From the NCBI GenBank assembly GCA_946409635.1, contig CAMJXD010000001.1, positions 1-64,000 on the forward strand: a stretch of DNA of 64,000 bases, read 5' to 3'. The DNA is from an uncultured Prevotellaceae bacterium (lineage in GTDB: Bacteria; Bacteroidota; Bacteroidia; Bacteroidales; Muribaculaceae). Shown here one piece after another: positions 42,635 through 49,481 of the stretch. A model generated the notes under the pieces. The model was given only the letters and a program-made list of their open reading frames with translations. It was not told the origin of the DNA and did no database searches. Position numbers and translations under genes: made by a program. The first letter of the stretch is position 1, and each line of letters begins with the position of its first letter.

Positions 42635-43432
42635 TCACAACGATGCGTAGAAGTCCTTGACCCTGGTCACGTCATCATCGTCGATGAACTCCAGCTTGGG
42701 CAGCGACGCGGCTGCTTCGAGCACGGCCTCGCTCACTCCCGTCTCACACTCGATGACCGCATCGGCATACTTCAGCGAGTAAGCCATCAGGGAGTCATAA
42801 TCCAGCTCCTTGCCGGCAATGGGTTTCAAGGCGTTCTTGGGGATGCCATCCATGTGCATCTTCTCGCTCAAGCGTGCGTCCAGTGGCCCGGCTATCTGTT
42901 CATTGAACAGGGCACTCACGATCTTGGCATCACGGAACGACGGATCGTCGCCGTAGAGTGTGCGGATGTAAACAGGTGCCAGCGCCGAAATCCAGCCCGT
43001 GCACTGGATGATGTCAGGTATCCAGCGCATCTTGCGTATCGACTCAATCACCGCACGGACAAAGAACAGGCTGCGCTCGTCATTGTCGGCCGGAGAACAG
43101 TTCATCTCCAGCTCATCGATGCGGCTGCTGGCAAAATAATCCTCATTATAGATGAAATAAACCTGAAAATGAGCCTGTTGCAAGGTGGCAACCTTGATAA
43201 TCAACGGGTGGTCGGTATCATCAATGATTACATTCATGCCCGATAGCCTGATCATCTCGTGAAGCTGATTGCTCCGCTCGGCTATCATACCATACTTCGG
43301 CATGAATGTACGTTCCTCTATGCCCTGTTCCTTAATGCCTTGAGGAAATATTCGACCTATCTGGGACACGCGACGCTCGGGCACATAGGGAGCAATCTCT
43401 TGTGATATAAATAAGACTTTCTTTACATCCAT
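42635..43432 (-). CDS. Glycogen/starch synthase-like (short GT5 N-terminal-type) protein
   Basis: 265 aa; KVLFISQEIAPYVPE...FMPKYGMI; adjacent to DUF4270 gene. Confidence 0.8.
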   Translation of the reverse strand: MDVKKVLFISQEIAPYVPERRVSQIGRIFPQGIKEQGIEERTFMPKYGMIAERSNQLHEMIRLSGMNVIIDDTDHPLIIKVATLQQAHFQVYFIYNEDYFASSRIDELEMNCSPADNDERSLFFVRAVIESIRKMRWIPDIIQCTGWISALAPVYIRTLYGDDPSFRDAKIVSALFNEQIAGPLDARLSEKMHMDGIPKNALKPIAGKELDYDSLMAYSLKYADAVIECETGVSEAVLEAAASLPKLEFIDDDDVTRVKDFYASL

Positions 43433-43697
43433 GTTGCTTACTTTCTTAATTGAAATGCAAAGATAGCAATTTTTTTTGTTTTTATCCCTATTCTCAACTC
43501 ACAACTACCGCTTTTTTAAGTAAAAACACCCCCTTTTTAACATCTTCTAATCCTTTTTGCCCCCCACATTCACCACCGCCCATCCATTCAGCGCCAACAG
43601 CTCCTAACCCTTATTCTCAAAACCGCATTCCTCGCGACATCAGTTAAAAAAAAGCGTATTCCTTTGCTTCCTTTTCAAAGATATACTATAACTTTGC

Positions 43698-43790
43698 ATC
43701 CGGCGTTGACCATAGCCGGAATTATTAACTTTTTACAGTGAACTTCTATATCATCGCCACATTGCGATAATGATAGCAGTTCACGCCCCC
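43698..43790 (+). ncRNA. Candidate structured 5'UTR of the 43811 ORF
   Basis: TAACTTTG -7 element (43689-43696), CCGGC...GCCGG hairpin, long hairpin GTGAACT(43738)...AGTTCAC(43784) with inner TATCAT/ATGATA. Confidence 0.45.
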
Positions 43791-43810
43791 TAGAAAAAAC
43801 GGTTTTCGAT

Positions 43811-44035
43811 ATGTTTACAGTACAAGTCATCGAGCAATCTACAGGACGACCCGCCTATTACAAGAAGGTAGGCATAATCTTCCACGGACTCTTTCGTGGA
43901 GGCACCAAGGACATCTACACCGACCGTAACGGCGAAGCCCACTTCGACTATGACAACGGCAGGGGCACCATCTATGTGGGTGGCAAGAAGGTGTACGACG
44001 GTGAGATAAGCGGGCGCAAGGTCATCTACATCTGA
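43811..44035 (+). CDS. Small 74-aa hypothetical protein, beta-rich
   Basis: MFTVQVIEQSTGRPAYYKKVGIIFHGLFRGGTKDIYTDRNGEAHFDYDNGRGTIYVGGKKVYDGEISG; promoter upstream. Confidence 0.7.
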   Translation: MFTVQVIEQSTGRPAYYKKVGIIFHGLFRGGTKDIYTDRNGEAHFDYDNGRGTIYVGGKKVYDGEISGRKVIYI

Positions 44036-44088
44036 CCCTGGCCCACAGCTTTCAGGGCGCCTGGGGAAAGATTCCTCAGGCGGGTTGA

Positions 44089-45189
44089 TTATATCTCAGA
44101 GATCGAGGTCTTCAAGTCTTTCAGCACCAGCAGCCTGAACAGCCAGTGAGACATGCCGCCCCTGATGCGGTGCACCTTGCCTTTGTCCAGCTCTTCGACA
44201 TACATCGGCCTGATGCGCCAGCTGTAGTTATACCTGTTACCCCTGTCAAACATGCAGTACTCCCACCACTGTTCATCACGGCGCCACCACTCGCCTGTGG
44301 TATAGCCGTGCCTCAAGCCCCAATCGCTCACGCCGACAGCATTGGCCGACCCGCACTGGGCATACACATGCTTGGGCGCCATGCCCAGGTCCAGGACTTT
44401 GCCCAGCGACACGCGGCACACAATCAGCGCCTTGTTGCTATGATTGCGGGCATAGTGCGTCGCCGTCTTGCGCACGGGGGCAAAGTATATGCCATTGCCC
44501 ACATAGTTGCCGCCGCCCACTTGCCAGGTGCCCAGCGTGCGGCCATCATTCAGCCGACCGGGACTCTGGGTGATATTTTCACTGGCATACTGGTTGGTGC
44601 CATGATAGACCATCAGCGCGGGAACAACCGTGTCGATAGCTGTCCAGATGACACTCTCTACCACCGTCAGCATGAAGTGCCAGCTATATTTGACTAGCCG
44701 TAACGGAATCAGCAGCAGCCATGTGAAAAAGTTAGCACCGCCCTCTATTCGCGAGGTCGGATCGGCTATCTCTGCCAGATAGTTAAAGAACTCAAAACCC
44801 ACATGGATGATGATGTTGTAGAAAATTGCATTCACCAGGCGCAACGGGGCCAACAACACGTAGAGCGGTAGCTTCATCACTGTCCAGAATCGACGCATGA
44901 AGCGGTTGACCTTATCCGACCCGTGATGACTCTTGTAGAGCACGCGCCAGGGCTTGGACAAGTGACGCTGCAGACCATTGAGCAGGTTAAACGGATAACT
45001 CACCGTCCTGTAAAACAGATAGAAGAAACGACTCAACCCACTCACACCATAGCGCAGCAGATGCCTCAACAGGTAGAACCCCACCAGCAGCAATGGCACA
45101 ATTGTCACCAGACCGCCGATTTCCTCGTCGGTCAAGAAGATTAACAAGATGACGCTTTGAATACTCATGAGAAATGTTATTGTTACCAT
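44089..45189 (-). CDS. Multi-pass membrane protein with C-terminal PARP-like ADP-ribosyltransferase domain
   Basis: 366 aa; hydrophobic N-half; MVYHGT, GNGIYFAPVRKTATHYAR, LIVCRVSLGKVLDLG, WWEYCMFD (H196-Y235-E310). Confidence 0.7.
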   Translation of the reverse strand: MVTITFLMSIQSVILLIFLTDEEIGGLVTIVPLLLVGFYLLRHLLRYGVSGLSRFFYLFYRTVSYPFNLLNGLQRHLSKPWRVLYKSHHGSDKVNRFMRRFWTVMKLPLYVLLAPLRLVNAIFYNIIIHVGFEFFNYLAEIADPTSRIEGGANFFTWLLLIPLRLVKYSWHFMLTVVESVIWTAIDTVVPALMVYHGTNQYASENITQSPGRLNDGRTLGTWQVGGGNYVGNGIYFAPVRKTATHYARNHSNKALIVCRVSLGKVLDLGMAPKHVYAQCGSANAVGVSDWGLRHGYTTGEWWRRDEQWWEYCMFDRGNRYNYSWRIRPMYVEELDKGKVHRIRGGMSHWLFRLLVLKDLKTSISEI

Positions 45190-45357
45190 GCAAATTTAGG
45201 CAGAATCGCCCAAACAGCCAAATAATCAGCACTTTTTCACGCACGCAGGATAAAAAAATGCTTAAGTTTCGCAAGCAGATAGCTTGCTCACTGATCACTC
45301 ATCTCTAATCCTCAAGTTGTAAAGTGGTTTGGACACTTTAGAAACTTGATAAAAAAA

Positions 45358-45438: not shown

Positions 45439-45894
45439 TCACTTGTCTTTCTTGCATGCACATCCGCCTTCACATGCGGCCGTTCCTGAATCACCCGAGC
45501 GAGTGATTCGGTGATGCTTGCGGTGTCCATCGGGACCTTCATGTCGCTTTACCTCGGCATACTTGGCAGCCTGTTCTGGAGTCAGCAGGGCTTCGATGCG
45601 GGCATCGGTCTGAGCACGACGCGACTGCATCTGCTCTCGACGAGATTTCATCGTTGCCTCATCAACGCGCTCGCTTGACTGAGCCGGCATCGACTGCATT
45701 TCCTCGATCAAGATGTTGGCAATCTCGCGTTTCTGTTCATCGGTCAGATTCAACTGCCTGTCCAGACGCTCTACTCGGCGCTGAGCCATCCTGGCCGGGT
45801 CCTTACTCCCATGGCGCTGAGGCTGTGCCGACATGACAATCGAGCCCATCAGGACCACGGTCATGACTAAAACAATCTTCTTTACTTGTTTCAT
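45439..45894 (-). CDS. DUF4890/Spy-CpxP-like periplasmic protein with Cys-rich tail
   Basis: MKQVKKIVLVMTVVLMGSIVMSAQ; LDRQLNLTDEQKREIANIL; LLTPEQAAKYAEV; C-terminal CEGGCACKKDK. Confidence 0.75.
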   Translation of the reverse strand: MKQVKKIVLVMTVVLMGSIVMSAQPQRHGSKDPARMAQRRVERLDRQLNLTDEQKREIANILIEEMQSMPAQSSERVDEATMKSRREQMQSRRAQTDARIEALLTPEQAAKYAEVKRHEGPDGHRKHHRITRSGDSGTAACEGGCACKKDK

Positions 45895-46204
45895 AATGGT
45901 GGTGTTTTGGAATTGATAATTGTAAATAAACATCACATTGATTTTCTCTCAATGATTCGACTACAAAGTAATATCCTTTTTTTAAAACAAAAAAATGTCA
46001 AATCGCCACTTCGTGACCAATCAACCAATCATGTTGACAAACGACACTAAAATCAAGACAAAATCAAGGCACGCCACCGGTCAGGCATGGCAATCGCATC
46101 CAAAATTCTTGTCAATAAATCAAAAAAAATGTAATCACAGCATACAACATAATGAAAAACGACGTATATTTGCATCACTATAGAGTACACAATCAAGCGC
46201 ACCA

Positions 46205-47701: not shown

Positions 47702-48208
47702 TCACTCCAGGCCCAGCTTCGCCTTCACCACAGGCATCAGGTCAATGGTGTTGGGACCGTAGTAGGCAACAGGGGTGACAGCCGTGTCCAGAACCAGGTC
47801 CAGGGCTCCCTGCTCTCCGGCCTGACGGATGGCGGCCTGCACCTTATCCACTATCGGCTTGGTGAGCAATTCACGCTGAGCCGCAATGTCGTCGGCAGCA
47901 CGGCGCTCAAACTCGCGCATCTTCTTGTCACCCTCCTGCAGTTCCTGCACCCGGCGCTCCTTGATGGTCGCTGGCATGGCAGCGTCGGCAGCCACGCTCT
48001 GGTAGTCGGCATACTTCTTGTCAAACTCAGCCTGCAGCAGTTCATACTCGGCATGATACCTGTCGCTCAATGTCTTGAGCTGAGCCTCGGCCGCTGCCTT
48101 CTCGGGCATGAGGTCAAACAGCTGCTGCGAGTTCACTATGCCTATCCTGGCCTGAGCCATCATCACGAGCGGCAGCACAGCCACTATCATGATAAAAAAC
48201 CGTTTCAT
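47702..48208 (-). CDS. OmpH/Skp family periplasmic chaperone
   Basis: 168 aa; ARIGIVNSQQLFDLMPEKAAAEAQLK. Confidence 0.88.
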   Translation of the reverse strand: MKRFFIMIVAVLPLVMMAQARIGIVNSQQLFDLMPEKAAAEAQLKTLSDRYHAEYELLQAEFDKKYADYQSVAADAAMPATIKERRVQELQEGDKKMREFERRAADDIAAQRELLTKPIVDKVQAAIRQAGEQGALDLVLDTAVTPVAYYGPNTIDLMPVVKAKLGLE

Positions 48209-48384
48209 TGCTTCAATTCTCCTCTTTTTTACATGAATAATATAACCGTTACAAAGGTAATCACTTTTTTGAACAATCGGGCCGATCGGGCACTAAAAAT
48301 TGAAACCCCTAGCGACAGTTTCCCGCCGTCCAGGGGTTTCGCAACTTAGCATTATCGTATTAGTGCTTTAGTCTACTTGATTGA

Positions 48385-48897
48385 TTACTTGATGCCTAAC
48401 TTGGCCTTTACCTTGGCGCTCACATCCTCGGCATCATTGCCAGTGTAGATGATTGAGCCGGCTGCGTGGTCAAAGATGAAGGTGTAACCGCCCTCGGCAC
48501 CTACTGCCTGGATGGCGTTCTGGAGCTTCTGAGTGATCGGAGCCAGAAGGGTCTCCTGCTGACGCTGCAGATCCTGCGATGCGGTCTGCTGGAAGTTCTG
48601 GATCTTCATGTACTCGTCTTGCAGTTCCTGCTGGTGACGGTCCTTGATGGCCTGGGGCGTTGAAGCGTCCTGGTCGGCTGCCTCATAGTCGGCCATTTTC
48701 TTCTGGAAGGCATCCTGCAAGTTCTTGAACTCGGTCTCATACTTGTCACTTACCGTCTTCAGGGTGCTCTCGGCAGTAGCCTTCTCGGGCATCACGTTGA
48801 AGATCTCACTGGTGTTGACATAACCGAACTTCTGAGCTTGTGCAGCAAGGCACATCATAGTTGCCGTAATGGCAAAGAGCATAAATCTTTTAAACAT
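48385..48897 (-). CDS. OmpH/Skp family periplasmic chaperone
   Basis: 170 aa; QKFGYVNTSEIFNVMPEKATAEST. Confidence 0.9.
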   Translation of the reverse strand: MFKRFMLFAITATMMCLAAQAQKFGYVNTSEIFNVMPEKATAESTLKTVSDKYETEFKNLQDAFQKKMADYEAADQDASTPQAIKDRHQQELQDEYMKIQNFQQTASQDLQRQQETLLAPITQKLQNAIQAVGAEGGYTFIFDHAAGSIIYTGNDAEDVSAKVKAKLGIK

Positions 48898-48968
48898 GTC
48901 TAATAATTGATTTCAGTTGTTAGTATACTAATGCTTTTTTTACTTCATTTTCTGTGCCGAGAATGGGA

Positions 48969-49481
48969 TTACTTGTAACCCATCTTCTCCAGCACCTCGT
49001 TGCTCACGTCGATGCGCGGCGAGGCAAAGATGATGCTCTGGCTGCTGGCACGGTCCATAATCATCTGGAAGCCACGCTCCTCACACACCTTCTTGCAGGC
49101 ATTGTAAATGTCGTCCTGGATGGGCTTGATGAGCGACTGGCGCTTCTTGAACAGCTCGCCCTGGGGGCCGAAGTACTTGTACTGCAGCTGCTGAGCCTCC
49201 TTCTCCTTCTCGGTAATCTCGGCCTCTTTCTTCTTCTTCTGGTCGTCGGTCAGGAAGACCATGTCGGCCTGATAGTTCTTGTACATGGTGTCGGCCTCTT
49301 TCTTGAGCTCGTCAACTTCACGCTGCCAGCGCTGGGACACCTGGTTCAACTGCTCGTTAGCCATCTCATAGGCGGGAATGTTCTTCAGCACATACTCCAT
49401 GTCAACGAGGGCAAACTTCTGCGCATTGGCGGCCATAAAGCCGGCAACAAGCGCCACTGCGATTAAAGCGATACGTTTCAT
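48969..49481 (-). CDS. OmpH/Skp family periplasmic chaperone
   Basis: 170 aa; QKFALVDMEYVLKNIPAYEMANEQLN. Confidence 0.9.
   Translation of the reverse strand: MKRIALIAVALVAGFMAANAQKFALVDMEYVLKNIPAYEMANEQLNQVSQRWQREVDELKKEADTMYKNYQADMVFLTDDQKKKKEAEITEKEKEAQQLQYKYFGPQGELFKKRQSLIKPIQDDIYNACKKVCEERGFQMIMDRASSQSIIFASPRIDVSNEVLEKMGYK

Follow-up and report, generated by a model that had tools for sequence, protein, structure and literature searches.

What would a PARP-type ADP-ribosyltransferase (ART) do at the membrane of a bacterium? The question is raised by a gene on the minus strand at 44089..45189 of a 64,000-nucleotide stretch of DNA from an uncultured Prevotellaceae bacterium (contig CAMJXD010000001.1, positions 1 to 64,000), the whole of which we call the window. 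Its open reading frame of 366 amino acids, a PF00644 match, a 24-member family, an AlphaFold model and purifying selection point to a membrane-anchored enzyme of the PARP type. The family is apparently rare and undescribed, and its members may act as envelope-linked alarm switches.

Putative catalytic residues and predicted fold

The catalytic domain spans residues 191 to 350 (44140..44619, minus strand), based on PF00644, the AlphaFold model, and fold and profile matches. The initial annotation of this gene had read the PARP motifs in order, and both the motifs and the residue numbers proved exact in the 366-residue frame: VYHGT with H196, GNGIYFAP with Y235, LIVCRVSLGKVLDLG, and WWEYCMFD with E310. 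PF00644 (PARP) matched residues 194 to 272 (E=2.6e-6; 27.5 bits, with a curated cut-off of 26.7), a membership that is marginal but consistent; 18 of the 24 members were matched (Pfam, E<=0.01). The three residues of the H-Y-E triad, encoded on the minus strand at 44602..44604 (His196), 44485..44487 (Tyr235) and 44260..44262 (Glu310), were identical in all 24 aligned members at identities down to about 40%, which is the conservation that the annotation had proposed to look for in homologues.

A family profile of the ART region scored 32.2 against canonical Bacteroidota PARPs, with a maximum of 20.8 among 100 column shuffles. In this comparison, H196 and Y235 aligned with the homologous residues of the canonical proteins, namely, their histidine and the tyrosine of GYGLYF. 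E310, the putative catalytic glutamate, fell on the canonical one (NEFIVYN) in a longer alignment of low confidence, in which one template row (L102) was mis-framed. Because the PF00644 match, the invariant triad and a profile score above the shuffles coincide, the similarity is more than chance. Compared with its nearest relatives (L005 and L006), the gene showed nonsynonymous (pN) values of 0.22-0.23 and synonymous (pS) values of 0.83-0.89, the latter saturated, and it is under purifying selection.

The AlphaFold2 model of the protein had a mean pLDDT of 86.9 and a pTM of 0.84. All PDB matches listed for it were PARPs or tankyrases (Foldseek; E about 1e-3, probability 1.00), as expected had the annotation's ART fold been right, and the superpositions were loose, with a TM-score by target of about 0.24-0.42. 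ART-PolyVal and PARP-like proteins were among the best viral matches. The strands at residues 308-314 and then 326-333 of the model fit the strand order of PARP structures. By predicted fold and by the H-Y-E triad, the C terminus is a PARP-type ART, which is presumed to be catalytically active.

Membrane part, family and relation to known systems

The N-terminal 190 residues or so had been described as hydrophobic and multi-pass. Crude hydropathy, by which membrane segments were judged, bore this out for residues 2-42, which hold two hydrophobic segments, the one strong and the other weaker; the remainder is amphipathic or moderately hydrophobic, and the term polytopic was an overstatement. 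There are amphipathic helices at 43-78 and 92-112, with hydrophobic moments of 0.53 and 0.59, and residues 114-188 are moderately hydrophobic and carry invariant charges. Thus, only the first 45 residues or so look transmembrane. We distinguish a membrane-anchor region (residues 1-45; 45055..45189, minus strand), assigned from hydropathy, alignment and the absence of SH3_3 here, and a conserved helical module (residues 67-190; 44620..44991, minus strand) of amphipathic or interfacial character, assigned from alignment, hydropathy and the model, with a mean column conservation of 63%.

The usual layout in the family is a signal-peptide-like segment, an SH3b domain, a transmembrane (TM) helix, the helical module and the ART. 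SH3_3 was found in 18 of the 24 members (Pfam), whereas the window copy, L005, L006, L018, L027 and L029 are SH3b-less; residues 1-45 of the window protein stand in place of the signal peptide, SH3b and TM helix of most relatives. A single clear TM helix precedes the module in most relatives (L029 has none), and no hydrophobic segment follows the ART domain by hydropathy. Since positive charges lie C-terminal to the TM helix (alignment and hydropathy) and a periplasmic-type SH3b lies before it, we infer that the catalytic domain of the family faces the cytosol. All N-terminal variants (signal peptide plus SH3b plus TM helix, single TM helix, or two segments) are compatible with this topology.

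A scan of GTDB genome contigs yielded 25 relatives, nearly all of them labelled Bacteroidales-type metagenome-assembled genomes and many from rumen or gut. The earlier description of an H-Y-E PARP-like ART with membrane attachment in gut-type Bacteroidales is supported. Convincing members occurred in 3 of 297 genomes of the window's bacterial family and 3 of 394 of its order, the window's own genome included; the ART family is thus rare and sporadic in Bacteroidales. Of the 45 genomes matched at the level of the order, 42 were set aside as non-ART because the match covered the SH3b part alone, and a match in G178 (L004; 34% identity over 59 residues) was not used. In the tree, L005 and L006 join the window copy in one group, for which support is moderate (80/100). 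The contig of L014 is labelled "uncultured Rickettsiales," and mis-binning is likely because its ART nests among Bacteroidales copies. At L028 (7665-9012), a frame break splits the ART gene, through either real loss or an assembly error. No relatives were found in the phage, plasmid and viral-contig collections searched, and the ART is therefore not a known phage gene in those collections; PHROGs gave one weak match, to an unnamed family.

Two surveys of bacterial PARPs report mainly soluble, DNA-repair-like WGR proteins with the architectures WGR-PARP, WGR-PARP_reg-PARP and PARP-only, and neither contains an SH3b domain or TM anchor on a bacterial PARP (PMC4245714, PMC5966428). The ART family resembles these PF00644 proteins in fold, H-Y-E triad, GxGIYF and LxxCxVxLG motifs and sporadic occurrence, whereas it differs from them in its N-terminal membrane anchor, its own helical module and, in most relatives, the SH3b domain. 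WGR and PARP_reg had no Pfam match in any of the 24 members, and the architecture of DNA-repair-type (Clade 1) PARPs was not seen. The initial annotation had regarded the arrangement as uncharacterized, and indeed we found no description of SH3b-TM-PARP proteins in the open-licence literature, with an earlier description elsewhere being possible.

Among eukaryotic proteins, human PARP16 has a C-terminal transmembrane region (PMC4245714). It shares with the present family a membrane-tethered PARP catalytic domain plus a helical domain, but its TM region is C-terminal, whereas the hydrophobic segments of the ART family are N-terminal, so that the PARP16 topology does not apply. PARP16 is not known to carry an SH3b domain. 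The ART domain of PARP4 (PDB 8swy), carrying GSGIYFSDS and LLICDVALGKCMDL, was the best single-sequence PDB match of the window ART (E=0.19, or 0.0012 by profile) and came second in the fold search; the similarity is weak, and there are no domains in common outside the ART. CmdTAC and DarTG employ an ART as a bacterial defence-type enzyme (PMC11618068, PMC9967889), as may be the case here. The window ART differs from them in having no PADLOC match and in its architecture and partners. The ARTs of CmdTAC and DarTG are soluble and are not known to be membrane-anchored. Fold and triad thus mark the window protein as a PARP-type ART, yet it is set apart from DNA-repair PARPs by architecture, from PARP16 by topology and from PADLOC systems by the searches.

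Accessory insert and gene neighbourhoods

The ART gene lies in an accessory insert of about 1.8 kb (43558..45349), delimited by DNA alignment with same-genus genomes; the genes on either side are starch-synthase-like (42635-43432) and Spy-like (45439-45936). In the same-genus genomes examined, the starch-synthase-like and Spy-like (or NagA) flanks adjoin with no ART between them, and about 35-115 bp separate the flanks at empty sites; an ART at this site was absent from all other same-genus genomes examined. The insert also holds a gene for a 74-amino-acid protein (43811..44035, plus strand), convergent with the ART gene, whose model is an all-beta transthyretin-like fold (pLDDT 90.4) and which is a probable partner. 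One same-genus locus (L080) has the 74-residue gene alone at the site, without the ART. In L005 and L006, a copy with 78% identity lies on the same strand as the ART, and fewer than 10 bp separate its end from the start of the ART gene. Among the 297 genomes of the window's bacterial family, homologues with a strong E value occurred in G000 and G193 only, both of which bear an ART (Fisher P=7e-5). Such homologues occurred in 4 of 28 ART genomes, and the gene therefore accompanies some of the SH3b-less members and not the whole ART family. A weak match in G104 (E 9e-4) was discarded, being antisense to an unrelated gene. The 74-residue gene and the accessory nature of the insert were absent from the initial annotation, as were the minus strand and the SH3b domain of most relatives.

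We compared the surroundings of the relatives with a background of genome-wide hit counts; the P values assume uniform placement and were computed for RyR and TIR only. RyR domains occurred near the ART in 5 of 26 loci, compared with 0.16 expected from 29 genome-wide hits (P=3.4e-7), and TIR domains in 3 (L005, L016 and L025), compared with 0.36 expected from 64 hits (P=0.0044). These TIR neighbours matched Thoeris and other PADLOC TIR models over the TIR part alone. CASTOR/POLLUX-like RCK channels, so named from RCK domains and filter-like motifs judged by eye, were found near the ART in L009, L014, L015, L016 and L018, and the channel gene of L015 overlaps the ART start by 4 nucleotides. Other channels were MscS in L005 and Ion_trans in L110. 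Besides, there were NYN nucleases (L008, L010, L014 and L027), CbbX-like AAA ATPases (L006, L008, L014, L015 and L020 by Pfam; L022 by sequence clustering), a DUF4062-STAND protein (L018) and TerB (L012). In L006, the ART is preceded by a co-directional microbial PARG gene.

L111 (329-8960) together with L014 (88-6849) contains a same-strand run of genes for AAA, NYN, a CASTOR/POLLUX-like RCK channel, RyR and a very large TIR-Sel1 protein (1886 amino acids). The run and the ART gene are divergent, and a Cas6b gene separates them. The channel-RyR-TIR part falls just beyond the stretch taken for L014 and was left out of the enrichment counts. We found no description of RyR/channel/TIR gene groups, this run included, in the open-licence literature.

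Possible roles

How might these elements work together? The reading that we prefer, whose chances we consider evenly balanced, is that of an inner-membrane PARP-type ART that senses the envelope in its SH3b form and serves as an accessory stress or defence effector or modifier, the window form acting with the 74-residue protein. The H-Y-E enzyme would be anchored in the inner membrane with its catalytic domain on the cytosolic side, where NAD+ is found. In a typical member, the periplasmic SH3b domain would monitor the condition of the cell wall or envelope, and its signal would reach the ART by way of the TM helix and helical module. Once triggered, the ART would ADP-ribosylate a target close to it, possibly one of the associated ion channels or AAA machines, and so serve NAD+-linked stress or defence loci as an accessory effector or modifier. 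The SH3b-less window copy may work with, or be controlled by, the transthyretin-fold protein of the same insert. A more elaborate scheme, in which SH3b-read envelope damage activates the cytosolic PARP, which then acts on a CASTOR/POLLUX-like RCK channel by ADP-ribosylation or gating while TIR and RyR proteins make and read NAD+-derived signals, so that the ART is the membrane part of an undescribed NAD+-based bacterial alarm system, seems to us improbable.

Several observations weigh against the preferred reading. The equivalence of Glu310 comes partly from the one low-confidence alignment, the best local alignment ending before this residue, and the window protein had no match in NCBIfam and none to any PADLOC model at E<=1. 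The stress or defence role proposed in the initial annotation finds circumstantial support in the relatives' RyR, TIR, channel, NYN and AAA neighbours, but co-location with defence-like genes is association and not function; the window copy stands alone among housekeeping genes, with neither TIR nor channel nor known defence genes adjoining, and the ARTs of L011, L013 and L017 lie in ordinary contexts. A general pairing with PARG was rejected, as PF10021 occurred in 6 of 28 ART genomes and was absent from the window's genome. Furthermore, the corresponding chromosomal site of G193 holds the 74-residue gene but no ART; the ART lies elsewhere in that genome.

The ordinary contexts of some members would also suit envelope-stress signalling outside defence, with an SH3b-regulated membrane ART tuning envelope or translation homeostasis much as PARP16 does at the eukaryotic endoplasmic reticulum. 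The periplasmic-type SH3b of 18 of 24 members is consistent with this, as are the ion channels that recur around ART loci and an OmpA-family gene found nearby, whereas the rarity of the family (3/297 and 3/394), the RyR and TIR enrichment and the accessory insert of the window copy argue against it, and we regard it as rather unlikely. The 74-residue gene raises the possibility of a toxin-antitoxin-like pair, in which it would encode the antitoxin or chaperone of a self-toxic ART. It shares the insert with the ART, adjoins it upstream in L005 and L006 and has no strong match in 294 ART-less genomes; however, 24 of 28 ART genomes are without a strong homologue, no linked antitoxin occurs family-wide, G193 carries the two genes apart, and those of the window are convergent rather than co-directional. 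Such a pair is accordingly a doubtful explanation.

TIR domains can consume NAD+, and RyR domains may sense nucleotide signals. These neighbours, together with the loose Foldseek superpositions on PARPs, would fit a PARP fold used as an NADase or as a catalytically inactive sensor of ADP-ribose or NAD+, but the triad is complete and invariant, including the glutamate expected for transfer, which makes this use quite improbable. We consider a secreted polymorphic toxin highly improbable: the ART is C-terminal, as in many toxins, but the TM helix and helical module ahead of it are conserved, conservation extends over the whole module and not an exchangeable tip, Pfam scans gave no toxin-trafficking or repeat domains, and there is no consistent immunity gene.

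If the preferred reading holds, SH3b-TM-PARP proteins that face the cell wall would wire ADP-ribosylation to the bacterial envelope in a new way, and the repeated proximity of RyR, TIR and ion-channel genes would connect PARP chemistry with NAD+-based immunity in bacteria, a connection so far drawn mainly for other ART families. The ART family is open to direct tests by means of single-residue mutants and the small partner protein.

Some further genes deserve mention. Sigma-factor-like genes, identified by eye, lie near the ART in L005 (10272-11832), L006 (13779-15270) and L020 (9074-10111), and they adjoin, or are fused with, a papain-like or RyR-containing protein. L006 also has a bacterial LIM-domain and DA1-like gene (1947-2891) in the region shared with PARG and the ART. 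Four loci (L023, 341-793; L024, 7080-7487; L025, 7077-7490; L026, 9792-10199) encode, next to the ART or in its vicinity, a conserved protein of about 135 amino acids with no Pfam match; L026 is rearranged yet retains the gene, and the protein may be a second kind of partner. In L110 (3279-8178), several short related genes with no Pfam match and an OmpA-family gene lie upstream of an SH3b-ART, with the Ion_trans channel downstream. Elsewhere in the window, three consecutive OmpH/Skp-like genes stand by a BamA-like gene (47702-49481), an arrangement that, by eye, looks ordinary.
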